A stretch of 64,000 bases of DNA from Candidatus Rifleibacteriota bacterium. GTDB lineage: Bacteria > Muiribacteriota > Ozemobacteria > Ozemobacterales > Ozemobacteraceae. The DNA is taken from contig JAAYNI010000018.1 of NCBI GenBank assembly GCA_012520995.1, positions 1-64,000 on the forward strand, read 5' to 3'. The notes beneath the pieces are model-generated. The model ran no database searches and was not told the origin of the DNA. It worked only from the letters and a program-made list of their open reading frames with translations. Each line of letters starts with the position of its first letter. The stretch's first letter is position 1. The position numbers were made by a program, and so were the translations under genes. Of the stretch, positions 1,409 to 51,663 are shown one piece after another.

Positions 1409-2758
1409 TTATCCTTTTTGAATATTAAATAAATTTAGAAGTTTTAAAAAGAGGGTGATCAAAAAATTGGAGAGAATTTTGAATCTTGCTGAATACTTCA
1501 TTGATGATACCAGTCTAGGACTAGTTCTCATATATAGGCGATTTATTGCAGTTCCTGCTGGCAGAGAAAAGAGAACGTCCCGCCTGAATGCTCTCAGAGC
1601 TGCAATTTTTTTAGGCTCATTTTGGCATGCAAAGGAAGCTACAAAACACAGATAGTTTCCATCTCTTTTTTCGTAGTCAGGCGTAAAGTTCTGATCTTTA
1701 TTGTAAATCATAGCCCTAATGCTTTCAGCCCGCTCATTTTCTCCTAAATATTTTAGAGTCATATGAAAATTATTCAGCACTTCAATGTCAGAATGATCTA
1801 TGGTGAAAGCCATTTCATAAGCTTTTAAGGCTTGCAATAGATGTTTTTTTCCGAAAGTTGAGCCTGCGGCTATGCCTTTTTGAAGATAAAAGGCTCCTGC
1901 TTCTATTAAGAGCGGGTATTTTATATCTTCAATTTTCTTGGCTGTCTCGATAATCTCTGGCTGATCCTCTCCGTGAAGCCGCTGAAGGTTGTTTATTAGG
2001 GTGTCAGAGTCGCCGAATCTCTTAACTTTTGCTAAAGAAATAGCTTTCATCAGTTCCATCGATAATGGCAAATTTTTAATTCTTTTGTCGCGGTTTTCAA
2101 ACAGTTCTAAAAGCAGACTGTAAGAGGCATTGCTCCAAGCATTTTCTACATCTTGTACGAAGCTGTTATATTCCTCTTCGGGTATGGGATAAACTTGGGT
2201 AATTGGTGCCAGTATTTGGCGCTTCTGTAGAAGTTTTTCTTTTTTGATTTCTTCAATTGTTTGGCGAAATTCAGCAGCGCCTTTTGGATCATTGATTTGA
2301 GTACGGCATTCAGCAAGACCTATTAACGGCAATGTCGAATCAGGGAAGAGATGAGCTGCCTTGGCGAAATGGCCCTCAGCTTCGTTGGAAAGTTGTCTTA
2401 TTCTCTTTGAGAAGGTGATGCTGTTAGCATTTTTTTCCAATATAACTTTATCTTCTTTAATTTTTTTTAGAAGACTGTTGCCTTTATAAAGAAGATTGTC
2501 AAAATAATGTTTTTTTGCCGTAGCAGCCAAGGAAAGGTATTTTCTATCCTCGCCATATAGCTCTTTTAAACGGTCAATAATAAAATGACTTTCTTCAAAC
2601 TTCCGTTCTTTTTCAAAATCATTGTAAAGTTCTTCCAAAACCGTGATATCTGGTTTGAAATTCTGCTTTATATAGTCGTTGATTATCTTGTTAATAGCGT
2701 TCGCATTTCCGTTAAGGACTGCGAACTTTATAGAAGACTTGAAATTTTGCGAATTCAT
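1409..2758 (-). CDS. TPR-like repeat protein, probably co-transcribed with the SpoIID-like gene
   Basis: 449-aa ORF; helical repeat-like segments (e.g. 'AEGHFAKAAHLFPDSTLPLIGLAECRTQINDPKGAAEF', 'ALKAYEMAFTIDHSDIEVLNNFHMTLKYLGENERAESI'); 1-bp gap to the next gene. Confidence 0.6.
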   Translation of the reverse strand: MNSQNFKSSIKFAVLNGNANAINKIINDYIKQNFKPDITVLEELYNDFEKERKFEESHFIIDRLKELYGEDRKYLSLAATAKKHYFDNLLYKGNSLLKKIKEDKVILEKNANSITFSKRIRQLSNEAEGHFAKAAHLFPDSTLPLIGLAECRTQINDPKGAAEFRQTIEEIKKEKLLQKRQILAPITQVYPIPEEEYNSFVQDVENAWSNASYSLLLELFENRDKRIKNLPLSMELMKAISLAKVKRFGDSDTLINNLQRLHGEDQPEIIETAKKIEDIKYPLLIEAGAFYLQKGIAAGSTFGKKHLLQALKAYEMAFTIDHSDIEVLNNFHMTLKYLGENERAESIRAMIYNKDQNFTPDYEKRDGNYLCFVASFACQNEPKKIAALRAFRRDVLFSLPAGTAINRLYMRTSPRLVSSMKYSARFKILSNFLITLFLKLLNLFNIQKG

Positions 2759-4465: not shown

Positions 4466-7198
4466 TTAGTGCTTTGGCGATGTGGGGGAAGAATCCATTA
4501 TTGGTCCGCCAGAAGAATATCTTTGTCCCAAAGTTTCCTTGAAGTTTTTCTTGTCATTTGCATGCCTATAGGCTTCATCGTAAGAAATTCTCCTTGCTAT
4601 GACAGCATTTTCTAAGCATTTGTCAAGAGTTATCATGCCATCTTCTGTGCCGGTTTGCATCAAAGAGGTGATTTGTTCAAGTTTGTTATCTCTTATACAT
4701 CTTCTTATGGGAAGAGTGCCTATAAGGACTTCATAAATCAATACTCGGCCATCGGCAAGGTATGCAGGTACCAGTCTTTGTGAGATAATAGCTCTAAGTG
4801 TTGTGGACAGCTGCATTCTGATCATTTCTTGAATGTTTCCTGGAAAGCTTCCTACAACGCGGTTTACAGATTCATAAGCGGAGTTGGTGTGAAGAGTAGA
4901 GAAAACAAGGTGGCCTGTTTCAGAGGCGGTTAAAGCGAGTTTCATGGTTTCAGGGTCACGCATTTCTCCTACCAAGATTACGTCAGGGTCTTCACGTAAC
5001 GCGCTTCTCAAAGCGTTTTCAAAAGAAAGCGTATTAGAGCCCAGTTCTCTTTGGTTAACCACACATCTTTTATGGGGGTGGATAAATTCTATTGGGTCTT
5101 CAATTGTCATTATATGTTGGTAGGCTGTTCTGTTGATATGGTCTATTAATGCGGCTAATGTTGTTGATTTACCTGAGCCTGTTGCGCCTGTAACCAAGAC
5201 CAGTCCTGACTTGTTAGAGCAGATTTGCTCGCTGATAGATTCGTCAAGACCTATTTCTTTGAATGTTGGCACAGAATTAGGAATCATCCTGAAAACTCCG
5301 GCCATACCATTCTTTTGCATAAAGACGTTAACTCTGAAGCGTGTTCCGTCTTCAATTTCGTGTGAAAAGTCAAGTTCCATCCTTTGTTCAAAAACGCGTT
5401 TTTGTTCTTCATTCATAATGGAATAAAGAAGGAAACGGCTTTTTTCAGGGGTGACTGTTTCCGCTTGAGTTCTTATAAGCTCGCCGCTGACTCTAATAGA
5501 AGGAGGCAAGCCTGATGTCAGATGAAGGTCTGAACCTTTTACTTCTCTTAGGTAGTTCAAAAGGTCTCGCATGCTGGAAAGAGCTCCAATTATAGCAGAA
5601 GGTCTTAAAACTTTCTTTTGAACCGTGACATCGGACATAATTTCATGGGTTATGCTTCCTTCCTTTAGAAGGGCGTCCAACTGTTCTGGCGAGTATTTTG
5701 ATACTGTATTTACAAACTTTTCTTGTTCTAACTCTGTAGAGGAGTCGTAAAGGTATAGAAACGATGAAATACCTGGATAATCGCGTCTTTTGAATATTTC
5801 TCTTGACCAGTAGGCAATGTCTTTGTCTCTGTCAAAGCAGGAAAGCACAAGATCTTTAAGAAATGCTTCACGCGGATGTTTAGATAAAGCTTCAACTATT
5901 GTGTATCTTATTGTAGTATCACGGTCGTTCAACTTTAAAAGCAGCATGTTAGCCATAAGATCAAAGTTTTGCAATTTTGCGAAAGCTTCTATGGCACAGA
6001 TTTTTATCAGAGCCACTTTGGAGTTGTCTATCATGTAGAGAAGAGGCCTCAGAGCATCGCTTGAGCCGATTTCTCCCAACACCTCGATTGCTTGAATTGT
6101 CAATTGAGGATTCTCATCATCAAGTATTCTTAATAGGTGTTCAAGTGATATTACACCTAAGCTTACCAAGACAGATTTTGCATAGTTTTGTATAAAGACT
6201 ATGTCGCTATTAAGATACTTAATTATTTCCGGCACTATTTCAGGTCTTCTGACTTCAGAATAGGCGGTTAGTATAAAATAGGCCGTATCCATGTCTGTAC
6301 GGTTGAAAGTGTTTTTCAAAAACTCTACGACTTTTATTCCCATGGTGATGCCCAGATAACGCATTATAATTAGTTTTGCATGTCTCGCTGATGAAGCGAA
6401 AACGGAGAGCAAGGGTTTGAGGGCCTGCTCTCTCCATTTGCATAGAGCTTTTAATGCTTCTTCCCTGAGTATATCTGAGTCGTCATTTATAAATTCAATT
6501 AAGTGTTTGATTGCGATTTCGCCGCACATTTCGCCAAAAGCGGCTGCAATATAGGGTTTAAGATAGCCTGTCGGGTCGCTCTCAAGCATTTTTTGAAATA
6601 AGGGGCCTGCTGAGTTTTTAACCACCAAAGGAATTAGCTTCATACACTCGTATTTTGCTATTGTGGAAGAGGTTTGGAAAAATTCTTGGATGATAGGGTA
6701 TATGCCTTCGCCTTTAGATATTAAAAGTTGCTTTACAGCATTTTTTACCAACCAGCTGGGGTCTGTTATTAGTGGCAGCAGGGCTTTTATTGCTTCAGGA
6801 GTATCGGACTTGCCTACTTTGTCAATGGCTGTGATTCTAATTTCATCACTTTCTTTGCTGTTCAGAAGCTGGTAAACCTCATTTTCTTCTAAAAAGCCAA
6901 GTTCTATTAGAGTAAAGTAAGCCCAAAATCTGACTTGCGGTTGATTGGAGAGTCTAAATGGCGATAGAACGCTCTTAAGAACTGTCGGATATGCTGAAAC
7001 AGTCTGAACTGTTTTTTTCTGGATACTTTCATGTTTGGAGGAAACAGCTACTGGAAAAACAGCAGCTATGATTCGTCTCTGATTCTGAGAGTTTTGAACC
7101 TGCAAGACTTCTTCCAGTTTGGAGATTGCCTGCTCATTTTCTAAAAAATCCGAGCTTTTCAGTTTATCCAGAATACTTAAGGTAATTTCTTCAATCAT
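4466..7198 (-). CDS. HEAT-repeat protein fused to a PilT-type (type IV pilus retraction-like) ATPase
   Basis: N-terminal ~540 aa of HEAT-like repeats, then a PilT core: 'LREVKGSDLHLTSG', Walker A 'GATGSGKST', 'TIEDPIEFIH', Walker B 'DPDVILVGEMRDPET', His box 'TGHLVFSTLHTNSA'. Confidence 0.9.
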   Translation of the reverse strand: MIEEITLSILDKLKSSDFLENEQAISKLEEVLQVQNSQNQRRIIAAVFPVAVSSKHESIQKKTVQTVSAYPTVLKSVLSPFRLSNQPQVRFWAYFTLIELGFLEENEVYQLLNSKESDEIRITAIDKVGKSDTPEAIKALLPLITDPSWLVKNAVKQLLISKGEGIYPIIQEFFQTSSTIAKYECMKLIPLVVKNSAGPLFQKMLESDPTGYLKPYIAAAFGEMCGEIAIKHLIEFINDDSDILREEALKALCKWREQALKPLLSVFASSARHAKLIIMRYLGITMGIKVVEFLKNTFNRTDMDTAYFILTAYSEVRRPEIVPEIIKYLNSDIVFIQNYAKSVLVSLGVISLEHLLRILDDENPQLTIQAIEVLGEIGSSDALRPLLYMIDNSKVALIKICAIEAFAKLQNFDLMANMLLLKLNDRDTTIRYTIVEALSKHPREAFLKDLVLSCFDRDKDIAYWSREIFKRRDYPGISSFLYLYDSSTELEQEKFVNTVSKYSPEQLDALLKEGSITHEIMSDVTVQKKVLRPSAIIGALSSMRDLLNYLREVKGSDLHLTSGLPPSIRVSGELIRTQAETVTPEKSRFLLYSIMNEEQKRVFEQRMELDFSHEIEDGTRFRVNVFMQKNGMAGVFRMIPNSVPTFKEIGLDESISEQICSNKSGLVLVTGATGSGKSTTLAALIDHINRTAYQHIMTIEDPIEFIHPHKRCVVNQRELGSNTLSFENALRSALREDPDVILVGEMRDPETMKLALTASETGHLVFSTLHTNSAYESVNRVVGSFPGNIQEMIRMQLSTTLRAIISQRLVPAYLADGRVLIYEVLIGTLPIRRCIRDNKLEQITSLMQTGTEDGMITLDKCLENAVIARRISYDEAYRHANDKKNFKETLGQRYSSGGPIMDSSPTSPKH

Positions 7199-7354
7199 GG
7201 CTCAGGTGCCTTTCAGACTGTAATTTCCACATGATGCAGTTTGGATTGTACAACACTTTGTGTAATATAGCAAAATTTAGTATAATTCGAAGTATCGTTG
7301 GAAGAATATAACAAATTTTCTTTTGATTTGTCATCTTGCAAGAGGGCAGATAAT

Positions 7355-9580
7355 TTGAAGATAACAAGTATAAATAAAGTAACTGGACGTAGAACTGGTA
7401 TGGCTATAATGTTAGCTTTGCTGGTTTTTATGGTTTTATCTATTCTTGTTATGCACTTTTTTACAGTCAGCCAACAATCAAAGTATTCTTCTTATAGATT
7501 TATGCAAGCGGAGATTGCCAGACAGCTTGCTTTCTCAGCTCAAGACGAAGCTTTTTCTATTCTTAAAAACTCATTTATTTTTAGAGACAGCCCAACTGAT
7601 TATTACCAAGCTGTTCTCACACAAGAAGCCAGAAACAAAGAAATAGAGATTAAAACTCCTCAGACGGAAAACAATCTTTTGCCTAAGAAAATGCTTCTGA
7701 AAACTACTTTCAGGATAGCAGATTTCAAAAACACTAATCATGAAGGCGTATCTTTTTCCAATAATCGAGAAGGCATAGGCACTTTGGAGATTAAGACTGT
7801 TGTTCAGCCTGAGAAGGAGGAGAAAGGCAAGCATTTAAGCGGTGGCTTAGCTACTGTCATCAGACACTACGATTATAAAGTAATTACAATGATGTCTGAC
7901 AAACAAGATCCTGCTTACAGAGATTCAGGACGTTATAATGGCAATCAATTGCTTGATTATGTTTTATTTGTAAGAAATGCATCTGACAATTTCAACAGCT
8001 TGCAAGGAGCTTCTCTTAACCCTGGAAATCCTGATGATTCCCGAGAATTCGGCGCTATGTCCTCTGCTCTGGACATAACCGTTGATACTGGTTCTTCCGA
8101 AAATTTTGGAAAAGTTGCTTTTGCTACCAGATGGACTCATGAGCAGAAGACAAGGATAGGAGAACTCTTATATTTCAACCTCCCCAAGGACAATCCCTTG
8201 GTTAATCTTGATGAATCGCCGGTAAAAATAGATGAATTGAATAAATCTAATATTGATGCCTTCTTCCCGGCTTTTTTAGATGCTGTAAGGCAAGCTGTTT
8301 CCGAAAAAGGCGGAAATTTTATAAGCGCATCTGGTTACAAAGCTCATGTTTATGAAGTAAAGCGGCCTTTAATGAAAGATTTCTTTACTGCAGAACCCCA
8401 GGCTAAGGATGGAAAGATTCCAAGCAATCTTCGCATTATAGCGGCTATGACTTCATACTATCTGCTCGCTAAAAATCAGTTTCCCTCTAATTCTCCAGAT
8501 CTCATGGCAATTTTTCCAGGCACTTATAACCCTCAGATGAGCTTTTTATTCGAAGGACAACCTGTTAAAGCTGATCGCTTAAGCCAAATTTTTACTTCTC
8601 CGGTAAGCAGAAACTACATGTATTATAGATACATTACTCTTGATATATCTCAAATGACAGTAACCTATTCTTATAAAGCAGGTCTAACCACAAAAACTGA
8701 GACTGTAAATATAGGCTCATTGGGAGAAGCGGCCAGCGCTGTGGAAAAATTGGCAAAGCAGCAAATAGCATCTATAGATAACAATGCTTTTTCAGTACAA
8801 GGTTTGGGTGGAGATATGAAGTTTGATGTATTAAGAGACCTTTGGAATAATAACGCAAAAGACAGATTCCTTAGACTCGCTATTGATGAAAAGTATCTTC
8901 CGGAAGATGGCACTTTCAATCAGGATTACTTTCGTGATTTAAATAATAAACCCTTGAATACTTCTTTTGGCGAGACAAATGAGTTATATAAGGTTCCTCC
9001 TCCTTTTGCGAACTTTCAACTTTACTCAAGGCGCGGCTTACGCCTCTCTGAGCTTGAAACAGCGGGGTTCTTGGAGCGAACATCAGACAAAAATATATTA
9101 AAACTTGATGGCTTTATTGAATTGTTGCCAGAAGAAGATAAAGATTTTTCCGCCTTTATAACAGACTTTGGCGAGAAAAAGCCGCTTGAAATAGTCGGAC
9201 AAGGCGGTATAATTGCAAACTACATACGCATAAACTCTTCTGTAACACGAGCTAATGACAATGCTCTTTGTGTCTTCATGTGCACTCCTTATACCCATCA
9301 AGGCATTATTTATGTTCAAACAGAAGAAGAAATAAATGCTGTTTTAGTGGCTATGTCAAAAAGACGAAGCTATAATGACACCTTGCTTGAAATAGAAAAA
9401 AACATGAAACTTCGTGGAGCTGTTCTTGTTGATAATATGCCTTATTGGGGAACAAATTCTAATAAGAGCGAAATTATTTATGATCAAAGGCTTAATTCTA
9501 AAAACTTAAATTTAGTACACCTTGCTCCAGTAATTACCTTTGAGAGAGTAGTTGAAAGAGCCGAAGATGAGGGTATATGA
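7355..9580 (+). CDS. Large GspK/PilX-like minor pseudopilin
   Basis: ORF track starts at TTG 7298 without an RBS; TTG 7355 is preceded by AGAGGG (7341-7346) and gives the leader 'MKITSINKVTGRRTG|MAIMLALLVFMVLSILVMHFFTVSQQ', prepilin-like and lacking Glu5 as in GspK-type proteins. Confidence 0.7.
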   Translation: MKITSINKVTGRRTGMAIMLALLVFMVLSILVMHFFTVSQQSKYSSYRFMQAEIARQLAFSAQDEAFSILKNSFIFRDSPTDYYQAVLTQEARNKEIEIKTPQTENNLLPKKMLLKTTFRIADFKNTNHEGVSFSNNREGIGTLEIKTVVQPEKEEKGKHLSGGLATVIRHYDYKVITMMSDKQDPAYRDSGRYNGNQLLDYVLFVRNASDNFNSLQGASLNPGNPDDSREFGAMSSALDITVDTGSSENFGKVAFATRWTHEQKTRIGELLYFNLPKDNPLVNLDESPVKIDELNKSNIDAFFPAFLDAVRQAVSEKGGNFISASGYKAHVYEVKRPLMKDFFTAEPQAKDGKIPSNLRIIAAMTSYYLLAKNQFPSNSPDLMAIFPGTYNPQMSFLFEGQPVKADRLSQIFTSPVSRNYMYYRYITLDISQMTVTYSYKAGLTTKTETVNIGSLGEAASAVEKLAKQQIASIDNNAFSVQGLGGDMKFDVLRDLWNNNAKDRFLRLAIDEKYLPEDGTFNQDYFRDLNNKPLNTSFGETNELYKVPPPFANFQLYSRRGLRLSELETAGFLERTSDKNILKLDGFIELLPEEDKDFSAFITDFGEKKPLEIVGQGGIIANYIRINSSVTRANDNALCVFMCTPYTHQGIIYVQTEEEINAVLVAMSKRRSYNDTLLEIEKNMKLRGAVLVDNMPYWGTNSNKSEIIYDQRLNSKNLNLVHLAPVITFERVVERAEDEGI

Positions 9581-10068
9581 ACTTGAGAAAAAATTCTAAA
9601 GCTTTCACTATGCCAGAAATTTTAATAGCATTGATCTTTCTTTCTTTGGCTAGCGTGGCTTACTTTTCTTTAAATCGAGCTAATACTCGCACATCTATGA
9701 ATGCCTACTATGAAATGATGGCATTCTCTTTAGCGCGCGAACCTATAGAAGTATACAGAACCTTGGGTTATGACGTTTTAGCTGAATTGGCTGAAAGAGA
9801 AGAAATAGGTATTGCGGAATATCCTATAGGTAAAGACATGCGAACTGCTGTAAAATGCAAACTGGGCGATCAGATGCAATATCCAATTGATGCGGAAAAC
9901 TTTGAACGGGAGATACTTTTGGAACATGATAAGGGCAAAAAAGATGAAAGAGTGCCTTTTGTTAAAATAACAGTCAACATTTACCCTGTGGAGAATAAAA
10001 AAATCTCAAAGTTTATAGTAAAGCCGTTACTTGAGCTTTCTGGAATTGTGGCGAGAAACATAAGGTGA
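9577..10068 (+). CDS. Type IV prepilin-like protein (GspI/PilV-like)
   Basis: 'MNLRKNSKAFTMPEILIALIFLSLASVAYFSL' class III leader with Glu5; ATGA overlap with upstream gene. Confidence 0.8.
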   Translation: MNLRKNSKAFTMPEILIALIFLSLASVAYFSLNRANTRTSMNAYYEMMAFSLAREPIEVYRTLGYDVLAELAEREEIGIAEYPIGKDMRTAVKCKLGDQMQYPIDAENFEREILLEHDKGKKDERVPFVKITVNIYPVENKKISKFIVKPLLELSGIVARNIR

Positions 10069-10826
10069 GACAGATAATAGAAAATAAAGGTGTGACTTTT
10101 ATTGAAATCATGCTTGTTGTTATGTTGCTTGCTATGATTACTGTACCTTTTTATAACATACTGAGAAGCGGAACTGACACTTCGCTTAAGGGTATGGCAA
10201 GGGTCGATGTGACTTTAAAAGCCCGTAATATAATGAAACAAGTTTATGCGGATTTGAAGGTTTCTGCTTATCAAATTAACTTTAATAGCCTTTATAATAT
10301 TACAGATACAATGTACGTATCGGCAGCTGCAAATCCGCCAGATGAATATGTTTTTTACACATATCCTTCACATGAAGCCTTGGATAAAATACTTTTAAAA
10401 GATGATGACAATTCAGAAAAATTGCACGAGACCAACTATACTTCAGTAGCTCAAATTGTGTACAGTTTAAAAAAGTCTTCCGACCCAAATGAGCCTTTTT
10501 ATACTCTCTCCAGAACAGAGACTTTTCAAGGTGAAAAAACAGAGAAAGTATTGAGTGAGCAAGTAAACTATTTTGAAATCAAGCCAGTTTCCTTGAATTT
10601 GCCTGGAACAGAAAGATATGTTCAAGGTTTTTTTGTGACTCTTCAACTGGTAGATGTTGTTAAGCATAATCCAAATGCAAAACTCACTATGGAAAAACTG
10701 ACTAAAAATCAAAAAGATATCGTTTTAGCAGACTTCTTTGATTTAGTTTGTCCAGATTATTTAAATACAAATTTTGCTGTGAAGGCTCCTAGCCTAAATT
10801 GGCACAGTTTGACTAAGGAAAATTAG
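10065..10826 (+). CDS. Type IV prepilin-like protein (GspJ/PilW-like)
   Basis: GTG start; 'MRQIIENKG|VTFIEIMLVVMLLAMITVPFYNILRSG'; GTGA overlap with upstream gene. Confidence 0.8.
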   Translation: MRQIIENKGVTFIEIMLVVMLLAMITVPFYNILRSGTDTSLKGMARVDVTLKARNIMKQVYADLKVSAYQINFNSLYNITDTMYVSAAANPPDEYVFYTYPSHEALDKILLKDDDNSEKLHETNYTSVAQIVYSLKKSSDPNEPFYTLSRTETFQGEKTEKVLSEQVNYFEIKPVSLNLPGTERYVQGFFVTLQLVDVVKHNPNAKLTMEKLTKNQKDIVLADFFDLVCPDYLNTNFAVKAPSLNWHSLTKEN

Positions 10827-21811: not shown

Positions 21812-23803
21812 TTATTCGCTTATTCTGTCGCCCCCGGTTTTTTGAAGGTTATAAAGATTTTTTTTGGCTGCTTCAAGAAATGCTGTGAGTTCCATTGATT
21901 TGTCGTAAAGCTCGGTTTCAATAGAAACAGTGATGTCGTAGGTTTTGCCATTATGTTCAATCAAAGATTGCTTAATCTTGGCAAAAATCTTTTTGGCAGC
22001 TGCTTGAGCACCCTCTTTGAGCGTGTCAGGCATGATTACGGCAATTCTGTTGCCTTGGAGTCTGCAAGGAATATCGTTAAATCTTACAATTCGTTTGATT
22101 TTTGAAGCTATGCTTTTAATTATTTCATCATTTAAAGCTTCATTGTTTTTGGCAATTTCATCAAGGTTGTCTACAGCTATAAGAAGGAGGGAAAGACTGG
22201 TATTTGTTCTTCTGATACGATAAATCTCTTGTTCAAGCCTAGAATAAAAATAAGCATCTGAATATAAGGCAGTAAGGCTGTCAACCATTCCGTGTCTGGT
22301 TGTGTCGGCATTCTTCATTAGTACACTGAGTTGAGATATCAGCATTTTTGCAAAGTTAAAATCTTCTTCAGTGAAGTGGTGATTGTCTTGCCTATCAGTG
22401 AGACTCATTATAGCTGTAACTTCATTGTCTAGTATAATAGGAAGAATCATGAAAGATTTTGATGAGTAGCTGTTTGCTCTGGTGAACTCAAATCTTTCCT
22501 CTTCGTCTATGTTTTTTACCAGTAATGGTCTTTTGGTTTCTATGACATATTTTGAAACAGGTGAATCCCATAGGTTAAGAGTTACTGGTAGGTTGGGACG
22601 ATCAGATTTGGAGAAAATATACTTTTTCTCTGTAGGGTCTAAGAAGGCAAAGGAAAACTTTGTTGCGGCAAACATATCTGTGAATAGATTTTTGAGAGTT
22701 ACAGGAATCTTTTCTAATGCCGGATCTGCCGATATTAGTTGAGTAGTTGAGCTAAGAGCGTTTAACTCTTTGTTTGTGCGTTCTAAACAGGTGTTGGAAA
22801 TCTTCAGCTGCTCCATTATTTGGTAAGTATGTATAGCTGAAGCAATGTTTCGAGCCATTATTATTAGGAAATCCTCGTCGTAATCGCTTTCGTCCGAAAC
22901 ATCGAGTTTATTGCCAATAAGAAGAACTCCGTGAAGAGTGTTGTCTATTTTGAGCAGATAGCTTCTTTTCAGTTCCTCAGGGGCATATTTTTCTGCAAAC
23001 TGAGGGAAGGTTTTAGTCAGCTCATTTGTAACATTGACACTTTCAGAAGCTAGTAAAGCGTCCAACTCTGTTTTATCGTTAATTTTGATTTTGGGAAGTT
23101 TGTCAGCAGATTTGAACTTAATATCAATGTAAGCGTTCAATTCTTGTGCTTTGCTGTCATAGAGATATATAGCTCCTCGGCTTATCCCCAAGGTTCCTAA
23201 AAGAATTCTGAGCATGGATCTTAGACCTTTTTGCAGAGTTTGGCTTCTGCACAGGAAAGAACTAAGGTCTATGATACTGCCTAAAATGTATTGGAGTCTC
23301 TCAACACGGCGTTTTTCGACCAGGAGCTCTGTTTGATCCAAGGTCATGTTCTGGGGAACCTTCTTGACTAGGGTGATGAGTGTTCCTTGTGGAGGCATAG
23401 AATTTATTTTAACGCCGTCCATCAGGTTAGTCATGAGCATTAGTCCCCAACCACGCTTGTAAGATGAATTCATTTTTTTTGCAAGAGTGGGGTTAGGGTC
23501 AACTTTGTTAGGGTCAAAGCCTTTGCCATAGTCGCGAATCTTAATGGTAAGATCTTCGCCGTCAAATTCGAGTCCTATATCGACATCGTCTTTTATCGCG
23601 CCTTCGGAATCTTGAGAGGTGTCTTTTATGGAGTGTTCTTTCGCGTTGACAATAGCCTCTATAAAGGCCATTTTCATTTCATCTATTTCGTCTTTGGCAA
23701 AACCGCATTTAGATGCAAAATTCTCTAGATATTCACAAGCTTCCAGCTCCGAATCTCTGTCGTTAGTTAATTTAAAAAAAACTTGCTTTACATACGGAGA
23801 CAA
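21812..23803 (-). CDS. RsbW-like HATPase + GAF + degenerate GGDEF protein
   Basis: 'MAFIEAIVNAKEHSIKD' and 'IKIRDYGKGFDP...RGWGLMLMTNLMD' ATPase boxes; GAF-like middle; GGDEF-like C-terminus with 'QGNRIAV' at the signature position. TTG 23803 has GGGAGG 6 nt upstream; the ORF track extends to 23848. Confidence 0.75.
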   Translation of the reverse strand: MSPYVKQVFFKLTNDRDSELEACEYLENFASKCGFAKDEIDEMKMAFIEAIVNAKEHSIKDTSQDSEGAIKDDVDIGLEFDGEDLTIKIRDYGKGFDPNKVDPNPTLAKKMNSSYKRGWGLMLMTNLMDGVKINSMPPQGTLITLVKKVPQNMTLDQTELLVEKRRVERLQYILGSIIDLSSFLCRSQTLQKGLRSMLRILLGTLGISRGAIYLYDSKAQELNAYIDIKFKSADKLPKIKINDKTELDALLASESVNVTNELTKTFPQFAEKYAPEELKRSYLLKIDNTLHGVLLIGNKLDVSDESDYDEDFLIIMARNIASAIHTYQIMEQLKISNTCLERTNKELNALSSTTQLISADPALEKIPVTLKNLFTDMFAATKFSFAFLDPTEKKYIFSKSDRPNLPVTLNLWDSPVSKYVIETKRPLLVKNIDEEERFEFTRANSYSSKSFMILPIILDNEVTAIMSLTDRQDNHHFTEEDFNFAKMLISQLSVLMKNADTTRHGMVDSLTALYSDAYFYSRLEQEIYRIRRTNTSLSLLLIAVDNLDEIAKNNEALNDEIIKSIASKIKRIVRFNDIPCRLQGNRIAVIMPDTLKEGAQAAAKKIFAKIKQSLIEHNGKTYDITVSIETELYDKSMELTAFLEAAKKNLYNLQKTGGDRISE

Positions 23804-23986
23804 GAGAGACCTCCCAAGGATATTATACTTAAAATTTAACTTGAACACATTTTATTGTCAAGAAACTATAGGCTTGCTCGGAAAAGATAAAACAATGTAT
23901 TGCTGATATAAATTTATTGAATAGAGATTTGTTAAGTGATAGATTGTTTTTGTTCTAAAAAAATATATATATATGGGGTGATTTTA

Positions 23987-36059: not shown

Positions 36060-38999
36060 TCAAAGTTTTCTAATGACTATCATGGTAACGTCGTCATCAA
36101 ATGGCTGACCTTCTTGATATTTGTTCAACTCTTTCATCATATCTTGAATATAATCAGCGGCGGACATATTTTCAGTCATGCGTTCTTTAAAATGCTTTTG
36201 CAGTCTTGAATAACCGTAAAGATCGCCGCTAGGACTCACTGATTCAACAACTCCGTCAGTATAGAATATCAAGGCATCTCCAGATTCCATTTTTACAGAC
36301 ATATCTTGGAATGAAGAGCGGCGCTTTTTCATGGCTCCCAAAGGCATTGAAGGCATTTTTATTTCTCTGACTTCTTGGTGGTCGCGGTCAAAAAAGATAG
36401 GGAAAGATTGCCCCGCATTATCAAAAGAAACGACATTTTTACCCAAATCCAACTTGGCACATATAAGAGTCATATATTTGTTTTTAGGTTTTAATTCTTT
36501 ATTGAATAGGGAGTTGAGTAGATCTAAAACCTTTTCGGGAAACATGTTTGCAACCTTGTTGGTATAGTCTACCGTGCCTTTTGCCATAGCCATAGCTATA
36601 GATGCTGAAACTCCGTGCCCTGTAACGTCGCCAAGTATGAAAGCAATATTGCCGGAATCTAAGTGTACAACGTCATGATAGTCACCGCCTAAGTCAGTTG
36701 CCGAAACGGTAAAGCATGCTATATCATAACCTTCCGGAGATTTTACTTCTCTAGGTAAAAGAGTGGTCTGTACAAATTTCCCATAAGAGAGATCTTCAAA
36801 CTCTGATATTACCTTATTAAAAGCTGTTGCAATAGTGCCAAATTCGTCTTTGTTTCTGACAGGTATCACAAAATCATTGTTTTTAGCTCTTATAGCTTCT
36901 ATTCCCTCGCCAAGGTCTGTGAGAGGCAAAATGAATCTGTTGTTTATAAAAATGGCGCCTAAGACAGATATCAAAAGAGCAAAAACTCCGATAAAGAAGA
37001 CTTGTCTTTTTACAGGAGCCAGAGCCTTAAGACGGTCTTTTCTGGAGACAAAGTGCATGAGAATATAATCGTTGGTGTTGGCGGGCTTTAGAGTTGCCCA
37101 ATAGGGTTTTCCGTCTATATCAATTTCTCTTGTCATAAGCTTCTTGCGTGTAAAAGCCACTTCAGACAGATCTAAAATTTTATTTATAGGCAGAAAAGAA
37201 TTTATTCTGCTAGGGAAAAGTGAGTTGGAAGTCAATCTTTCAGTTTTCCTAATAAATGCCCCAAAATCTTTTTTTGAATTAGTTACTTCTTCAAGAAAAT
37301 GATTCATTTGCCTTACTTGAGTATGTCTCAAAGGAACTGCGCACAATATAATCGCAGGACCTGTTGCAAGCTCACTGTAACAGTCCCAATACCAGCCAGT
37401 GTAACCTGTAAAAGTTATAGGAATCATCTGTTTTCTGTTTCTTAAGAGATTGGCTGCACCCAACTCATCTGTTGACAAGAAGGACTCTGCCAAGTCTTGA
37501 GCCATATCCAGCGAGAGATCGAACTGTCTCATTCTTGTGTGCGGCATATAAGCTTTTAGAGCTATTTTGCTGAATATATAGAAAAGTCTTAGTGTGGCAA
37601 AAATTTGATAATCAGCTCTGCTATATAAAATATTAAAGCTTTCGTCCCTTACTTCAATTCGGTTGAGATGAGGCTCGACATTATGTTCATCACTCTTTTG
37701 TTCGATAAGTTCGGCTGTCAGAGGTTGAGTTACTGCTATTTCACGCAGTTCATTGGCGAAGTTTTCGCTAGAACGTACTGCGAAAGCTTCATAGTCTTCC
37801 AAGCGTTCTATTGCTTTTATACTGTCTGCTGTAACTCTATTCAGTATATCTTCTTCTTTGCCTTTAATATAAGAAAAACCTGTAATAGTAGTTAACAGAG
37901 CGGGTATAAGAGAACTCATTGCAAAAATGAGAACAATTTTTTTTCTTAAAGACATGTTGTTTAACCATCTTAAGATGGCAGAAGAAAAGCTTAATCCAAA
38001 GAAGGAAGATATCAAAACTGTCGTTGTTATAAGCAGAAGTAATAAGAGAAGAGGAACAGCTTTGTGGAGCCAGTTTTTTTGTTCGTAAGGTGTTTGCTCA
38101 ATTGGAATAGTTCTGAAAACTTGCTTGCTGTCTTTTAGTTGGGCAAAAACCCAAAGATGATCGAACATATTAACTGTGTTTGTTTTGGTTGCTTGAGTCT
38201 TGAGGTATGCGGCATGAACTTGTTCGGGAGTGAACTCTGAAGATAGCGACAGGGTGCCTGATAAGTTATCAAAAACTCCATAATTACCCATGTTTTTTTG
38301 TTGGGCAACTATTTTCAACCTTTCCAAGTAGTCTGGTGTTTCTGTTGTGTAGGCAATATATCTGGGACCCTTATCAAAAGCTTGAAAAGAAATAAATTGT
38401 GTTGCTCCGCCAAAGACAAATGTTGAACCTGAGTCTATGATAAAGGTTTCTAGCATTAAATAGCCCTGATAGAAAATTTCCAAGAACTCCTTGATTGTAG
38501 CTTTATTCAGTTGTTGGAGTTTTTCACCTTTGGTATTGGCGTTGTCCATCAGGTTTTCAAAAAAGGCTTTATGGTTTTCATCAGGATTATAGCAAATTTT
38601 AAGTTTTATACGTTCTTGGCGGGAATTGTCATTTGTTTCAGCATCTTTTAATCTCTCTTCGGGAGAATCATAAAGATATACTCTCATTCTCAGCTTGTAT
38701 TTATTTTCTATATCAGACATAGCTTTATCAAATGCTTCTTGACTATCATTGGCGGTATTAAAAGCTGAAATTGTTTCATTGAAGGCGTTCTGATAAAATC
38801 TCATGGTGCTGAAGTTAGCCAAAAGCTCATCTGTTGAAGCGTCAAAATTATTATTGAATTGTCTTATCGTGTTTCTTTGAAGTTTATTCGCAGCGCTTAT
38901 TAAAGCGAGTATCAGAGACAACAGAATAATGGCTGTAAAGAGGATTGTCAGATGTCCAAATGAAAGGCGAGATGTGTTTTCTTTTTTTTCGGCTTTCAT
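36060..38999 (-). CDS. Membrane sensor SpoIIE/PP2C-type phosphatase with HAMP (catalytically intact)
   Basis: Extracellular sensor region, HAMP-like segment, 'LGGDYHDVV', 'GDVTGHGVSASIAMA', 'IFYTDGVVE', 'DDDVTMIVI'. Confidence 0.88.
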   Translation of the reverse strand: MKAEKKENTSRLSFGHLTILFTAIILLSLILALISAANKLQRNTIRQFNNNFDASTDELLANFSTMRFYQNAFNETISAFNTANDSQEAFDKAMSDIENKYKLRMRVYLYDSPEERLKDAETNDNSRQERIKLKICYNPDENHKAFFENLMDNANTKGEKLQQLNKATIKEFLEIFYQGYLMLETFIIDSGSTFVFGGATQFISFQAFDKGPRYIAYTTETPDYLERLKIVAQQKNMGNYGVFDNLSGTLSLSSEFTPEQVHAAYLKTQATKTNTVNMFDHLWVFAQLKDSKQVFRTIPIEQTPYEQKNWLHKAVPLLLLLLLITTTVLISSFFGLSFSSAILRWLNNMSLRKKIVLIFAMSSLIPALLTTITGFSYIKGKEEDILNRVTADSIKAIERLEDYEAFAVRSSENFANELREIAVTQPLTAELIEQKSDEHNVEPHLNRIEVRDESFNILYSRADYQIFATLRLFYIFSKIALKAYMPHTRMRQFDLSLDMAQDLAESFLSTDELGAANLLRNRKQMIPITFTGYTGWYWDCYSELATGPAIILCAVPLRHTQVRQMNHFLEEVTNSKKDFGAFIRKTERLTSNSLFPSRINSFLPINKILDLSEVAFTRKKLMTREIDIDGKPYWATLKPANTNDYILMHFVSRKDRLKALAPVKRQVFFIGVFALLISVLGAIFINNRFILPLTDLGEGIEAIRAKNNDFVIPVRNKDEFGTIATAFNKVISEFEDLSYGKFVQTTLLPREVKSPEGYDIACFTVSATDLGGDYHDVVHLDSGNIAFILGDVTGHGVSASIAMAMAKGTVDYTNKVANMFPEKVLDLLNSLFNKELKPKNKYMTLICAKLDLGKNVVSFDNAGQSFPIFFDRDHQEVREIKMPSMPLGAMKKRRSSFQDMSVKMESGDALIFYTDGVVESVSPSGDLYGYSRLQKHFKERMTENMSAADYIQDMMKELNKYQEGQPFDDDVTMIVIRKL

Positions 39000-41863
39000 G
39001 TTGTTTCCTCACCTAAGATATAGTTTAAAGCAAAAATAGTATAGTCACGGTCTTCGGTAACAGGGTTATTGATCTGATGAACAGCAGTTTTAGGCTTTTC
39101 TAATACAAAAAGACTTTTGAATTTTTCGACTGCTTGTTTAGCGTTTTCAGGAATTGAAGCTTCTTTGACAATATGCTCTATTTTTTCGTAAGCATCCGCA
39201 TATCCCTTCAATGTAAGTTCATTCATTAAACCAACTGTAAAACAGAACATTTTATCGCCAGGTTCTAGTTGCAGTTTTATTGGTTCAACCATTTTTTGGA
39301 GAGGAGAACCTAGTGGAAGGGAAGGGGATTTTAGCCATTGAATTTCTCTGTTTTGTTTTAAAATCATTGGTGGAATATGGCCTTGTACCACAATTGACAG
39401 TTCGCCTGTGATGGAGTTGAGTATACCTGCGACGGCTCCCATGTAAATTTTTTGCTCTTGATATTTACGAAGCATTTTGTCAATTTCTGTTAAAAGATCT
39501 TTTATTTTAGGGTTTTCAGTTTCACTCCAATGGAAGGTCAAGGCTCTGACAAAAGCAATCATAAGAGCTGAGGCTATTCCATAAGAAGAGAGGTTTCCAA
39601 TCAGGAAGAAAATATGTTCGCTGTCAATCATAAAAGAATCTAAACAGTTGCCGCCAACTTGATAAGAAGAGATTGTTTCGCCAAAGACTGAAAAACGTGG
39701 TGTTTGCGGAAAGTCATGTGTTATTAGGCCTTCCTGGACGTTTTTTGCGACCATGAGATCTTGATTTTCTTCCATTACAGTATTGAATTGTGTAAACAGA
39801 GTCGCTAACTCGTCTTTTCCAGAGTGATGGGGTAAACGGAATTCATAACGATGTTCTCCCATGGCCTCTATGCCCTTCTCTAAAGACTCCATAGGCAATA
39901 TGAGTTTCTGATAGACAAATATTCCGAATAAGACGAATAAAATACTCCCCGTTAAGAAGAGAGCAAAGCTTCTTTTCTTGCTTTTCTGATAGGTAGAAGC
40001 TATATCTTCAAAAGAAGAAATCGATACAAAGCAGGATTGATCCAGCTTTCCTGGTATTACCGCACTCAAAAGTTTGTTAGCAGCAGTATCCAAGTAATTG
40101 ATATCTGAGTTTGTAGCAGCTGCGGTTACAGCCATTTTCCTCATTTGGCTTTCTTGTGCGAGGGGAGGAGGAACAAACCATCTATAACGCTTAAGATCAA
40201 ATACGTAAATTGAGACGGTTTTGCCCAGATCTGTAGTAAAGTCTACGCCAGCGCTTTCCAGATAATGTTTCAGCAGATTTTGCATTGGCAGTTTTATAAA
40301 AACAACAGCAGAACTTCTGTTTTTTTCCTGTTTAAAGAGATTGTAATAGTGTCCGAAGAAGACATCACTTACTTCATATAGCTGCAGGGTACCTGGGTAA
40401 TCCAAAATTTGAGCAAAGCCAAGATCGCCCGATCTTACTAAGTAATCTGTCAAGGGATTGGCACGATATTCAGCTTCATCTGCTCTTTCAGGCATATCTC
40501 TCTCAATACCGACTCTTCCTAGAGCTTGGAAGACGCTTTTCTCTCCGATGGAAAAGGGCAGGTCTGAAAAATACATGGGGTCTCCTGCCGCATCTAATAC
40601 AGATATTTTGGCATCAGGATATATTTTTTTTATTTCATTAATTGCAGCTCTTGTACGCCAATCTTGTTTTTGATCCTGTAAGCGGCCAGCGAGTTCAGTA
40701 AGCTTTAGCGACATGTCCTTCAAGTAAATATCAAAGTTAAATACAACGTTTTGAAGAGTTTCGTGTTGATTTGATAAAAGCTCGTTGAGAGAGGTTGCTT
40801 TGAAAACTTCTGTGGAGTCGTCGTTTACTTGGAGAAGTGTTATTGTAGGAACCAAGGCTGAGGCCACAAGAATAGTCAAAATAGATTGCTTTAAAGTGAA
40901 CTTGGACAAAAAATCTTTGTATTTGATTAGCCAAAGAAATAAGATGACCAGAACTATCGCCAGAACATTGGTGAATATCCTTGCGTAGTAAAAAAAGGAA
41001 GGGGAAGTTTTAAAAGACATAAAATAATTTAAGCCTTTATTGGAAGCTCCGAATATGTAAAAGGCCTTATTATAGTAGCCTGAGTTTTTGCCCTGTTTTT
41101 TTAAGTTTTTGCTAATTTCGCTTATTTCTGATGTTGAGGCAGGAGTTATATTCTCATTTTCAGAAACCTGTCCGCAATCTAGAATTATAGAATTCTGCTG
41201 AATGTTTTTTTTGTAAATAGTCATCAGCAGTGAGGGTTCGGGCAAGGAATTGCACCTGACTATGACACCTCCTTCTTTTCTAGAAAGCCATGAGAAAAAA
41301 CCAAAAGACTGTTCTTCCGATGCAGAGCTCATGGGGGCTGTGTATATAATAAGTCCCTCATCATTTCTTATTGAATTATAATCTTTACCATAACCTAGAA
41401 CCTGTTTTAAAAGAGCATTGAGGCGGTTATTGTTTTCACTGTTAAAGTTATTAAAGTTATTTTGATTTAAAAAGGCATAAAGCTTATTTATGACATAGAT
41501 ATTAGGTGGGTTTGCAGGATAATTTTTAATAAGATTTGCATCAGAGTCATAAATGAAGAGATTTATATCCATTCCATATTTAGTCTGAAAATGATTATGT
41601 ATAGTGGCAAGATCTAAGTGAGGTTTTTCGTATAGTATTTTTAGTAAAGGTACAAAGGCTTTTGTGAGAAAAAGGTCTCTGTCGCATGCTGTAATAAAAG
41701 CTTGAAATTCGCGCTGAGCAGTTTCTTCAAAGTCTTGAGCTATTGAGGCTTCTTTGGATCTGAAATAGGAGTTCAGAGAGCCGTGAAAAACAAAAAGCAA
41801 AGCAAGTAGAACAGTTGCTGCTGCTATATGCTCCAAGAGTCCTATGATCTTTTTTATTTTCAT
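38996..41863 (-). CDS. SpoIIE-like membrane phosphatase homolog with degenerate active site (putative pseudophosphatase)
   Basis: Same architecture, but 'VGGNCLDSF', 'IGNLSSYGIASALMIA', 'CFTVGLMNE', 'EDRDYTIFAL' at the metal-site positions; ATG 41863 with AGAGG RBS preferred over 41896, which lies in a hairpin. Confidence 0.78.
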   Translation of the reverse strand: MKIKKIIGLLEHIAAATVLLALLFVFHGSLNSYFRSKEASIAQDFEETAQREFQAFITACDRDLFLTKAFVPLLKILYEKPHLDLATIHNHFQTKYGMDINLFIYDSDANLIKNYPANPPNIYVINKLYAFLNQNNFNNFNSENNNRLNALLKQVLGYGKDYNSIRNDEGLIIYTAPMSSASEEQSFGFFSWLSRKEGGVIVRCNSLPEPSLLMTIYKKNIQQNSIILDCGQVSENENITPASTSEISEISKNLKKQGKNSGYYNKAFYIFGASNKGLNYFMSFKTSPSFFYYARIFTNVLAIVLVILFLWLIKYKDFLSKFTLKQSILTILVASALVPTITLLQVNDDSTEVFKATSLNELLSNQHETLQNVVFNFDIYLKDMSLKLTELAGRLQDQKQDWRTRAAINEIKKIYPDAKISVLDAAGDPMYFSDLPFSIGEKSVFQALGRVGIERDMPERADEAEYRANPLTDYLVRSGDLGFAQILDYPGTLQLYEVSDVFFGHYYNLFKQEKNRSSAVVFIKLPMQNLLKHYLESAGVDFTTDLGKTVSIYVFDLKRYRWFVPPPLAQESQMRKMAVTAAATNSDINYLDTAANKLLSAVIPGKLDQSCFVSISSFEDIASTYQKSKKRSFALFLTGSILFVLFGIFVYQKLILPMESLEKGIEAMGEHRYEFRLPHHSGKDELATLFTQFNTVMEENQDLMVAKNVQEGLITHDFPQTPRFSVFGETISSYQVGGNCLDSFMIDSEHIFFLIGNLSSYGIASALMIAFVRALTFHWSETENPKIKDLLTEIDKMLRKYQEQKIYMGAVAGILNSITGELSIVVQGHIPPMILKQNREIQWLKSPSLPLGSPLQKMVEPIKLQLEPGDKMFCFTVGLMNELTLKGYADAYEKIEHIVKEASIPENAKQAVEKFKSLFVLEKPKTAVHQINNPVTEDRDYTIFALNYILGEETT

Positions 41864-41882
41864 ATAAAAAGCCTCTTTTAAA

Positions 41883-41909
41883 ACAAGCTTGAACAAAGTT
41901 CAAGCTTGT
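41883..41909 (-). terminator. Perfect 12-bp terminator-like hairpin after the fumarase gene
   Basis: ACAAGCTTGAAC-AAA-GTTCAAGCTTGT; on the minus strand followed by TTTTAAAAGAGGCTTTTT. Confidence 0.7.
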
Positions 41910-48624: not shown

Positions 48625-51600
48625 TTGGTGACAAAAAACATTTATCAAAATCTGCATTCGGATGAAAGCAACCTTTGGCAAAAAGCCTTAGCTGATATTG
48701 AGAAAAATCCCCAACCTGAAGATATTCCATTTTTGTTGAAAGAATTAGCTTCGCCTGTATGGAGAAAACGCGAGGCTTCAGCTCATTTGTTGCTTAAAAG
48801 ATTAGAAGAGAGCAAGAAACCTTTAAGACAAGCACTTGCTACGAAAAATCTTGATCTTATATATTGGAGTTTGTGGGTTTTAGGTTCTTCTGAAGATCCT
48901 GATGACTTGAATCATGTAATATCATTTCTAAATAATCCGGATCCGCTTCTAAGAAGCTACGCTCTCAGAGCTTTGGCTAAAGTAAAAACTTCCGAGCGAG
49001 CCGTATATCTCATAAAAATGCTTCTTGATCCAGATTGGACAGTGAGGCGCTTAGCATTTGAACTTTTAACTTCTTTTGGTGAATCCATATTACCTGAACT
49101 AAAAGTTCTCATCACTTCTGAACGACATGAAATACCCTATTATTTATCTATCCCTCTCTATGTTTCAATTGGCCGTGATTCCGTATTGAACGACTTAGCG
49201 GCTTTATATGCAAAAAAAGAATTTTCTTTTAGATATGCTTTGATTAAGTCCCTTGGAGAGCTTGGTACACCTTCAGCAATAAATTTCCTGCTTTCAAGTT
49301 TAAAAGATTGGTCTTGGGCTGTGCAGAACTTGGCAAAAGAACAACTTATGAAACTTGGCCCCAACTCTCTGGAATACATAATAAATTATTACGGAAGAAC
49401 AGCTACTAGCCTAGAAAAAAAACATATTTTAGATATTTTGGTCGGAAAGATGGGGGAACGTTCTTTGCCCATAATTTCTAGACTAGTCGCTGTCAAAGAC
49501 CCGGAATATAAGCTTATGGCAGTCGACTTTTTAGGAAAGCTTAAAAGTGATGCTGCTACAACCCTGCTCCTTCAAGTTTTAAAAGATGAGGATAGAACAG
49601 TTTCTGATTATGCCGCTGATGCTTTAATAAGAAAACAGGTATTGAATGCAGAGCTTTTAATATCTAATCTGAATACAGATGATACTCGTTTCAGATTTCA
49701 AATAATCAAAGTTTTGAGCTCACTGGGCGGCATTTCTTTAGATTATATTCTCAACCTTATAGATAAGGTAAATAAGCAAGAAAAGCTCTTTATACTGGGC
49801 GTTTTAAAAAATGTCGAACCGACACCGCCTCTTCTTGAAAAACTTTTCTCTCTGACTGATAACGAAAGCTGGGTTATCAGACGCGGTGCCGCAGAATGCT
49901 TGATGGAGTTGGGCGACAAAGCTATTTTATATATTATCTCGCATTTTTCCTCAGATTCCGAAAACACATTATACTGGCTTGGTGAAGTTCTTAGAAATAA
50001 TGAAGAACAGACACTTTCGGTTTTAACAAAGGCTTTGCATACTCCGACTTTTTTAGATGTAGTGCCTAATATTGTTGCTGCTTTAGCATCTCTGGGCTCT
50101 TCTGCAGCTATAAGCGTAATATCACGCTTCTTCTCAACAGCAGATGACTTTAAACTCAGCAATATTATAGAGAGTTTCCCTCCAATAGTCTCGTCAAATA
50201 CTGTTACAGCGATTCTTGAAAATCTTTCTGATGCTGATGAACGTTCAGCAACTTGGCTGGCTCAATTGCTTTCAAAAGTTAAAGGAGAAAGGCCAAGGAT
50301 GACAGCAATGTTGGGATTATCTCATCAGAATCCAAAGATCAGAGGGGCTGTCATCAAGGCGGTAGGAAGCTGGTCCAGTTTTGGTTCTGCAGAAAGTCGT
50401 TCTCTTCTCAATCAGCTTTTAGCTGAGACCTCAGTTCAAAACAAGGTTCTTGTCTTTTCCATTTTAGCTCGCAGTGATGATAAAGAAATATTTGAGCTGG
50501 CAAAAGCTTTTTTTGAAAGATGTGAGACAAAACTGCAATTACAATTGCTTTCAGAAGCTTCAGCAAGAGCTTCCGATAAATTTAAAAATCTATTCTCTGC
50601 ATTTTTGAGTGAGAATGCAGGAAAGGCTGATGAATCCACTAAAGAAGTTATTTCTAAAATTTTTGCAAATCTCAATAGCACTGATTTTACGCCTCTTCTA
50701 TCTTCTTTAGAGAGCGATAATATTAATTATAAATTAGCTTCTTTAAGTGCATTGACCAATTTTTATGATAAAAAGATTGCCTATGCGGTTATGGAAAGTA
50801 TTTATACAGATGAAGATAATACTGTTCTCAGATCTGCTGTGACTGTTTTGTTGCCATATCTCTTTGATACAGACTTCAGACTTAAAGGAGTTGTAACTGA
50901 ATTTATTTTAAGTCTCTCTGAAAAAGCGGTAACCGAACCAGCAATTGAGTATATGAAAACCTTGGAAAACCCCATTGACAGAAAGGTTTTAGTCGATATT
51001 GTTCAGGGGTTGGGAGGCATAGTTCCTCAAAACATAATTGACGGCAACTTTGATGAACCGGTTATCCTATCTGACAACCATCTGGATGAAGTGCTTGAAA
51101 AACGCAGACAAGCTTTGAAAGAGCTTGAAAAATATGAACAGATGATTCAGAGCAGTCATACAATGACTTTAACCATCATGTTTACAGATGTCAAAGGCTT
51201 TACAGAATTCAGCGCAAAGTCTTCCTTGAGCGAAGTTATGAGTATGTTGAAGCAACACGATGATCTTTTAAAGCCGATTTTCCAGCAGCATGAGGGTGAG
51301 GTTTTGAAAAAAATAGGCGATGCCTTGATGGTTGTTTTTAAAGATCCTAATAAATCAGTTCTTGCTGCTATAAAAGCTCAAAAAGCTCTTAAAGAATATA
51401 ATAGCGGAGTTGACGACTCGCGTAAACTAGCGGTTCGTATTTCTTTGAATACTGGTTCAGTAATCAGACAAGAAAATGACGTTATGGGCGATCCTGTGAA
51501 TCTTGCGTCCAGAATTCAAAATATAACTGATGCTTCTGAAATAGTTATCACTGATAATACTTATGAAGTCATTGATCCAAGTGTTTTCAATTTCGAGAAT

Positions 51601-51663
51601 CTTGGAAAACACAGCTTCAAAGGAATCAATCGAGAAGTAAATTGCTACAAGGTTATTTGGTAA
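48625..51663 (+). CDS. HEAT-repeat protein fused to class III adenylate/guanylate cyclase
   Basis: About 830 aa of HEAT-like repeats, then 'LTIMFTDVKGFTEFSAKSS', 'GEVLKKIGDALMVVFKD', 'DPVNLASRIQNIT'. Confidence 0.88.
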   Translation: MVTKNIYQNLHSDESNLWQKALADIEKNPQPEDIPFLLKELASPVWRKREASAHLLLKRLEESKKPLRQALATKNLDLIYWSLWVLGSSEDPDDLNHVISFLNNPDPLLRSYALRALAKVKTSERAVYLIKMLLDPDWTVRRLAFELLTSFGESILPELKVLITSERHEIPYYLSIPLYVSIGRDSVLNDLAALYAKKEFSFRYALIKSLGELGTPSAINFLLSSLKDWSWAVQNLAKEQLMKLGPNSLEYIINYYGRTATSLEKKHILDILVGKMGERSLPIISRLVAVKDPEYKLMAVDFLGKLKSDAATTLLLQVLKDEDRTVSDYAADALIRKQVLNAELLISNLNTDDTRFRFQIIKVLSSLGGISLDYILNLIDKVNKQEKLFILGVLKNVEPTPPLLEKLFSLTDNESWVIRRGAAECLMELGDKAILYIISHFSSDSENTLYWLGEVLRNNEEQTLSVLTKALHTPTFLDVVPNIVAALASLGSSAAISVISRFFSTADDFKLSNIIESFPPIVSSNTVTAILENLSDADERSATWLAQLLSKVKGERPRMTAMLGLSHQNPKIRGAVIKAVGSWSSFGSAESRSLLNQLLAETSVQNKVLVFSILARSDDKEIFELAKAFFERCETKLQLQLLSEASARASDKFKNLFSAFLSENAGKADESTKEVISKIFANLNSTDFTPLLSSLESDNINYKLASLSALTNFYDKKIAYAVMESIYTDEDNTVLRSAVTVLLPYLFDTDFRLKGVVTEFILSLSEKAVTEPAIEYMKTLENPIDRKVLVDIVQGLGGIVPQNIIDGNFDEPVILSDNHLDEVLEKRRQALKELEKYEQMIQSSHTMTLTIMFTDVKGFTEFSAKSSLSEVMSMLKQHDDLLKPIFQQHEGEVLKKIGDALMVVFKDPNKSVLAAIKAQKALKEYNSGVDDSRKLAVRISLNTGSVIRQENDVMGDPVNLASRIQNITDASEIVITDNTYEVIDPSVFNFENLGKHSFKGINREVNCYKVIW

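Follow-up and report, generated by a model that had tools for sequence, protein, structure and literature searches.

A PilT-type ATPase with an N-terminal HEAT-repeat arm in Riflebacteria, a candidate accessory motor of type IV pili

The extension ATPases of type IV pili are set apart from the retraction ATPases by an N-terminal domain, N1D, which likely contacts the PilM stator and is able to receive second-messenger signals (PMC11656802). Among the retraction-side ATPases, PilT conserves the AIRNLIRE motif, which PilU lacks (PMC6762196). In P. aeruginosa these two proteins also bear on cAMP levels, which are raised by loss of PilU and lowered by loss of PilT (PMC12607626). PilT-type motors are distinguished by the absence of an N-terminal docking domain; here we describe a natural PilT with a large arm that is predicted to be folded. 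In the open-access literature, with subscription journals mostly outside the search, nothing on point was found on such a fusion or on the pili of Riflebacteria.

The protein, referred to below as HEAT-PilT, is encoded in a stretch of 64,000 nucleotides (the window) that represents contig C74 of a Candidatus Rifleibacteriota genome of 2.84 Mb in 101 contigs. Its gene (4466..7198, minus strand) is an unbroken frame of 910 codons running from an ATG at 7198 to a stop at 4466. AAAGG is found about 10 nt upstream of the ATG, and 99 bp separate the gene from a divergent neighbour at 7298. That a single 910-aa protein is encoded is indicated by the one open frame, by the Pfam and NCBIfam matches and by full-length orthologues. 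About 540 residues lie ahead of the PilT core, approximately 512 of them in an alpha-solenoid and the following 30 or so in a linker.

Residues 543-888 (4535..5572, minus strand) make up a PilT-type ATPase core with the N2D and CTD domains. Pfam assigns T2SSE to the 910-aa protein at 169.5 bits, and residues 543-884 match NCBIfam TIGR01420 (PilT/PilU family type 4a pilus ATPase) at 457.6 bits, where the cut-off is 319.1. By sequence, the nearest experimental structures are those of P. aeruginosa PilT (3jvu, E=7e-104) and Geobacter PilT4, and the closest fold to the core is again PilT4 (6ojx, E=1e-19). All four boxes could be aligned on the minus strand: Walker A, GATGSGKSTT, at residues 671-680 (5159..5188); the Asp box, IMTIEDPIEF, at residues 696-705 (5084..5113); Walker B, REDPDVILVGEMRD, at residues 735-748 (4955..4996); and the His box, TASETGHLVFSTLHT, at residues 757-771 (4886..4930). 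The latter two are PilT-like, with Walker B set in the REDPD context of PilT and not in the RQAPD context of PilU. Catalytic positions of the four boxes, including the catalytic Glu of Walker B, are invariant in 17 orthologues. On the basis of the score and the intact boxes, the protein is assigned to the PilT/PilU family. Membership of the PilB/MshE-type extension ATPases was not supported, since TIGR02538 gave 129.4 bits against a cut-off of 675.65 and no N1D of the GSPII or MshEN type was detected above cut-off.

Within this family, a maximum-likelihood tree built from 73 PilT cores places the window protein and 13 orthologues in one clade (100/99). The sister of this clade is formed by the divergent HEAT-PilT of two other genomes, G006 and G011 (100/97), and the gammaproteobacterial PilU sequences stand apart at 100/100, with the window clade on the PilT side. 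By this measure the HEAT-PilT core groups with PilT and not with PilU. At the position of AIRNLIRE, the window protein has PIRRCIRD (residues 830-837; 4688..4711, minus strand), and the motif is altered across the whole orthologous clade, reading [PSA][VI][RK]RC[IV][KR][ED] in 14 of the 14 members on the tree. Divergent HEAT-PilTs outside the clade retain, for example, AVKNLIKE or AVQNLIRE, and the sister copies of G006 and G011 have AVKNLIKE and AVRNLMKE. HEAT-PilT does not qualify as a canonical PilT retraction ATPase: the AIRNLIRE motif is not kept, and the protein is not one of 350-400 aa free of an N-terminal domain. The orthologous group is predicted to keep the engine while carrying a distinct form of a retraction-associated motif.

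The arm (residues 1 to about 512; 5663..7198, minus strand) matches the Pfam HEAT_2 profile at 85 bits (cut-off 27.7) and HEAT at 38.5 bits, also above its cut-off. An AlphaFold model of the N-terminal 530 residues, built with 21 sequences, contains about 30 helices, or some 15 HEAT-type helix pairs, with a mean pLDDT of 91.5 and a pTM of 0.75. Its nearest PDB folds according to Foldseek are alphaRep, CAND1, PP2A PR65 and karyopherin-beta2, all of which are HEAT or HEAT-like solenoids. Both the profile matches and the stacked fold of the model identify the N-terminus as a predicted HEAT-repeat alpha-solenoid. In a model of the full-length protein, the solenoid is nearly as confident as when modelled alone; the ATPase domain and linker are poor there, the alignment being shallow. 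The linker (residues 513-542; 5573..5662, minus strand) is of low model confidence, with pLDDT below 50 at residues 530-536. At the end of the solenoid, residues 503-541 (5578-5692, minus strand) bear some likeness to the c-di-GMP-binding motif related to MshE. A domain of the MshEN/c-di-GMP type was rejected for the linker, because the score of 18.9 bits is below the cut-off of 38 and the motif glycine is lost in orthologues. The preliminary description of this locus, which was made from the DNA alone, had proposed a PilT-type ATPase with intact Walker A, Walker B, Asp and His boxes behind about 540 residues of HEAT repeats. The alignments and the TIGR01420 score confirm the core, and the model leaves no place for an N-terminus without a solenoid; only the length of the solenoid had been slightly overstated.

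The fusion is not peculiar to one assembly. Among 23 other genomes of the same family, HEAT-PilT is present end to end as one open reading frame in 16, and five further genomes have pieces cut at contig ends (one, G007, with an in-frame TGA). One orthologous group is found in 22 of the 24 family genomes, or in 23 if the divergent sister copy of G006 is counted, and its members occur in records named Candidatus Riflebacteria bacterium, Ozemobacter sibiricus and Rifleibacterium amylolyticum. The 17 full-length sequences, that of the window included, align from the first Met to the end of the ATPase, and the others are 53-57% identical to the window protein (47-52% in the HEAT part and 65-72% in the PilT part). 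Invariant positions number 178 in the PilT part and 129 of 510 in the arm, the latter figure indicating that the arm too is under clear constraint. The N-terminal start, MIEE[IL], and the linker between the domains are likewise conserved. A misassembly that joined two genes, or a fusion arisen by chance in a single genome, is ruled out by the same single-ORF architecture in 16 separately assembled genomes, and with the conserved start and linker such an origin is left with a negligible probability. The early reading of the locus as a single gene is therefore upheld.

The wider distribution was determined with a profile that reached from the HEAT part through the linker into the beginning of the PilT core and was run over 382 genomes with up to 4 candidates scored per genome. 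Matches covering both the HEAT and PilT parts were found only within the phylum (Riflebacteria), in five of its eight families: f1, to which the window belongs, f3, f5, f7 and f8. Pfam confirmed the architecture for representatives of all five. No fusion was found in the 342 genomes sampled outside the phylum, at up to 4 scored candidates each, and HEAT-PilT is a variant so far seen only in Riflebacteria. The proteins of the other families (L156, L157, L160, L188 and L085 in f7; L158 and L159 in f8; L198, L203, L204 and L211 in f3; L152-L155 in f5) occur in several copies per genome, and some have very divergent ATPase cores, for example that of L203 with a T2SSE score of only 49 bits. On the tree of 73 cores, at least three changes of the divergent HEAT-PilT label are required by well-supported branches; several fusions, or one old fusion combined with losses, might therefore account for the pattern. 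Two candidates were rejected as HEAT fusions: an open frame of 999 on contig C90 of G067, in which the protein begins at a 373-aa PilT, and a 736-aa ORF from another phylum (L151:610-2820, minus strand), which looks like a head-to-tail fusion of two PilT units.

The genes immediately next to HEAT-PilT in the window were not found beside it in 11 relatives. Divergent from it lies a pseudopilin-like operon (7298-10826, plus strand), whose genes specify a 760-aa product weakly resembling GspK, a second that is PilV-like and a third that is prepilin-like. A functional link with these genes was considered and dropped, as they were not found beside HEAT-PilT in the same 11 relatives. Elsewhere in the window, a gene at 1409-2758 (minus strand), adjoining a SpoIID-like gene, specifies a protein whose C-terminal domain is of the CFI-box type (35.1 bits, slightly short of the cut-off of 40). 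A 678-aa protein at 21812-23848 (minus strand) combines an anti-sigma-type ATPase domain with GAF domains and GGDEF, and two consecutive large proteins of 979 and 966 aa at 36060-41896 (minus strand) have HAMP and SpoIIE phosphatase domains.

In relatives, HEAT-PilT is flanked on one side by an HTH gene that adjoins the rpsB-tsf operon, and on the other by a gene for a HEAT-repeat adenylate cyclase (HEAT-AC) of 1008-1018 residues. The common block consists of the rpsB-tsf operon, the HTH gene, HEAT-PilT, HEAT-AC, a Zn-ribbon gene and SpoU. The window encodes a HEAT-AC of 1012 aa (48625..51663, plus strand; HEAT_2 145 bits, Guanylate_cyc, PF00211, 81.7 bits) at a distance of 41 kb from HEAT-PilT, the two genes being divergent; it is still beside the SpoU methylase gene, as in relatives. 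Its class III cyclase catalytic domain (residues 843-1009; 51151..51651, plus strand) has the adenylate-cyclase residue set, and D855, K895, D899, D952, N959 and R963 are invariant in 13 orthologues. The spacing of the metal-binding Asp residues, the Lys/Asp pair for adenine and the Asn/Arg pair for the transition state is the textbook spacing of class III cyclases. With the domain and the complete residue set present, HEAT-AC is a predicted class III adenylate cyclase.

HEAT-AC is found in 23 of the 24 family genomes, exactly those with a HEAT-PilT (which in G006 is the divergent copy only); in the other families of the phylum it was not found. HEAT-PilT and HEAT-AC adjoin each other in 14 of the 23 genomes carrying both, with gaps of less than about 240 bp, and G006 provides a 15th close pair at 2.5 kb. 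In seven other genomes they are found on separate contigs, of which several are long. Adjacent pairs are mostly convergent, with 3 of the 14 co-directional; in L010 the spacer is about 34 bp, and the linkage extends across six genera. The adjacency counts as moderate, not strong, evidence for a functional link, because it partly reflects common ancestry of the gene block. No cyclase adjoins HEAT-PilT in f3, f5, f7 or f8, where one HAMP cyclase was seen about 2.4 kb away (L202). A shared origin specific to the HEAT repeats of the two proteins is not supported, as a HEAT-AC query gives a better score with a different HEAT protein from the genome.

The source genome contains further pilus machinery. 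An ordinary PilT of 353 aa adjoins a PilB-like ATPase of 667 aa on contig C92, while contig C56 has another PilB-like ATPase next to a PilT of 506 aa whose N-terminus is rich in proline. In all, there are about 17 matches to T2SSE-type ATPases, along with several PilC-type platform proteins and PilM. The presence of these PilT/PilB-like pairs, platform proteins and PilM would make HEAT-PilT an accessory motor in a cell with pilus machinery. Family relatives also encode fusions of about 600 aa with the order cNMP_binding-MshEN-PilT (L164:1042-2853 and L169:758-2566, both plus strand), of which that of L164 retains the Glu and Arg of the cNMP binding cassette (GEMA...RTAS). This fusion was not found in the source genome itself.

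Taken together, we consider it rather likely that HEAT-PilT is an accessory type IV pilus motor of the PilT branch, whose N-terminal HEAT arms dock the hexamer to a partner. The PilT core would assemble as a hexamer beneath a type IV pilus, at its cytoplasmic base, and six arms would project from its N-termini, where PilB extension ATPases carry N1D. Given a solenoid at the N1D position, docking of this six-armed hexamer to a specific partner is the simplest interpretation. By binding a partner at the pilus base or at another site in the cell, the arms could set where and when the motor engages. In the family of the window, that partner or its signal may further involve HEAT-AC, so that engagement would be tied to cAMP. 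Such a link to cAMP signalling is plausible because of the HEAT-AC linkage, the precedent of PilT and PilU in P. aeruginosa and the cNMP-binding PilT paralogues in the same family. Weighing against it are the 41 kb that part the two genes in the window, the seven genomes with the pair on separate contigs and the lack of an adjoining cyclase in the other families. Alteration of the AIRNLIRE residues suggests an output that differs from the plain retraction of canonical PilT, and it makes retraction by HEAT-PilT uncertain. The preliminary description had envisaged a motor coupled to a protein-docking scaffold, and this proposal gains support from the solenoid joined to an intact core, the family-wide conservation and the invariant positions of the arm. 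It had also pointed to a comparison of architecture and neighbours, which revealed the fusion in five families and HEAT-AC adjoining it in 14 of 23 family genomes. Its further idea of a non-canonical retraction or secretion regulator is still a hypothesis: the altered AIRNLIRE, the canonical PilT elsewhere in the genome and HEAT-AC beside the gene in relatives are in keeping with non-canonical regulation, and nothing specific to secretion was found.

HEAT-PilT might instead be a plain extra retraction motor, with the HEAT arm acting as an adaptor that targets it to one pilus machine or to a cell pole, and with no link to cAMP. A need for such targeting exists in a genome with about 17 T2SSE-type matches and several platform proteins. 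An intact catalytic core and the HEAT-PilTs of f3, f5, f7 and f8, which have no adjoining HEAT cyclase, would also fit this explanation. However, AIRNLIRE is altered throughout the clade, and the linkage to HEAT-AC across six genera would be left unexplained; we regard a plain retraction motor as unlikely, although it deserves serious consideration. HEAT-PilT might also be a regulatory ATPase that no longer depolymerises pilin, its hexamer serving as an ATP-dependent hub or switch on which the HEAT arms gather signalling proteins. Fixation of the RRC variant in the clade and the canonical PilT at hand for retraction are consistent with this. On the other hand, the catalytic boxes are all invariant, the core (65-72% identity) evolves more slowly than the arm, as would be expected of a working motor, and the sister copies of G006 and G011 keep AVKNLIKE and AVRNLMKE, so that a purely regulatory role appears improbable.

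The accessory-motor reading can also be extended. The six HEAT arms might physically hold HEAT-AC at the pilus base, so that the state of the motor would set cAMP directly, and in several genera the cNMP-binding PilT paralogue would read the signal. We put this forward as a speculation that is more probably wrong than right by a wide measure; if true, it would amount to a loop from motor to second messenger that dispenses with the Pil-Chp chemosensory relay. For the docked accessory motor in general, partner choice and coupling of the motor to cAMP may reside in separable domains, and the system bears on the competition of motor ATPases for access to the pilus base and on their contribution to surface sensing.

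Among described systems, PilT (P. aeruginosa 3jvu/3jvv, Geobacter PilT4 6ojx; TIGR01420) has the same N2D and CTD core and all four boxes. HEAT-PilT differs from it by some 510 additional N-terminal HEAT residues and by the change of AIRNLIRE to [PSA][VI][RK]RC[IV][KR][ED]. PilU is similar in belonging to the TIGR01420 family and in being an accessory paralogue alongside a canonical PilT, whereas HEAT-PilT groups with PilT on the tree and has PilT-like Walker B and His boxes. The cNMP_binding-MshEN-PilT proteins of L164 and L169 are PilT-type ATPases from the same family that also have an N-terminal regulatory region, but their N-terminal domains are different and they form a separate branch of the tree. 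HEAT-AC has an N-terminal HEAT solenoid, the same family distribution and frequent adjacency in common with HEAT-PilT, and carries a class III cyclase domain in place of the ATPase. With the extension ATPases PilB, MshE and GspE, which have N1D, the common idea is that of an N-terminal domain that would dock the motor to the pilus base and take signals. In HEAT-PilT, this domain is a predicted HEAT solenoid and not GSPII or MshEN, on a core that reaches 129 bits against a cut-off of 676 for PilB and 146 bits against one of 630 for GspE.
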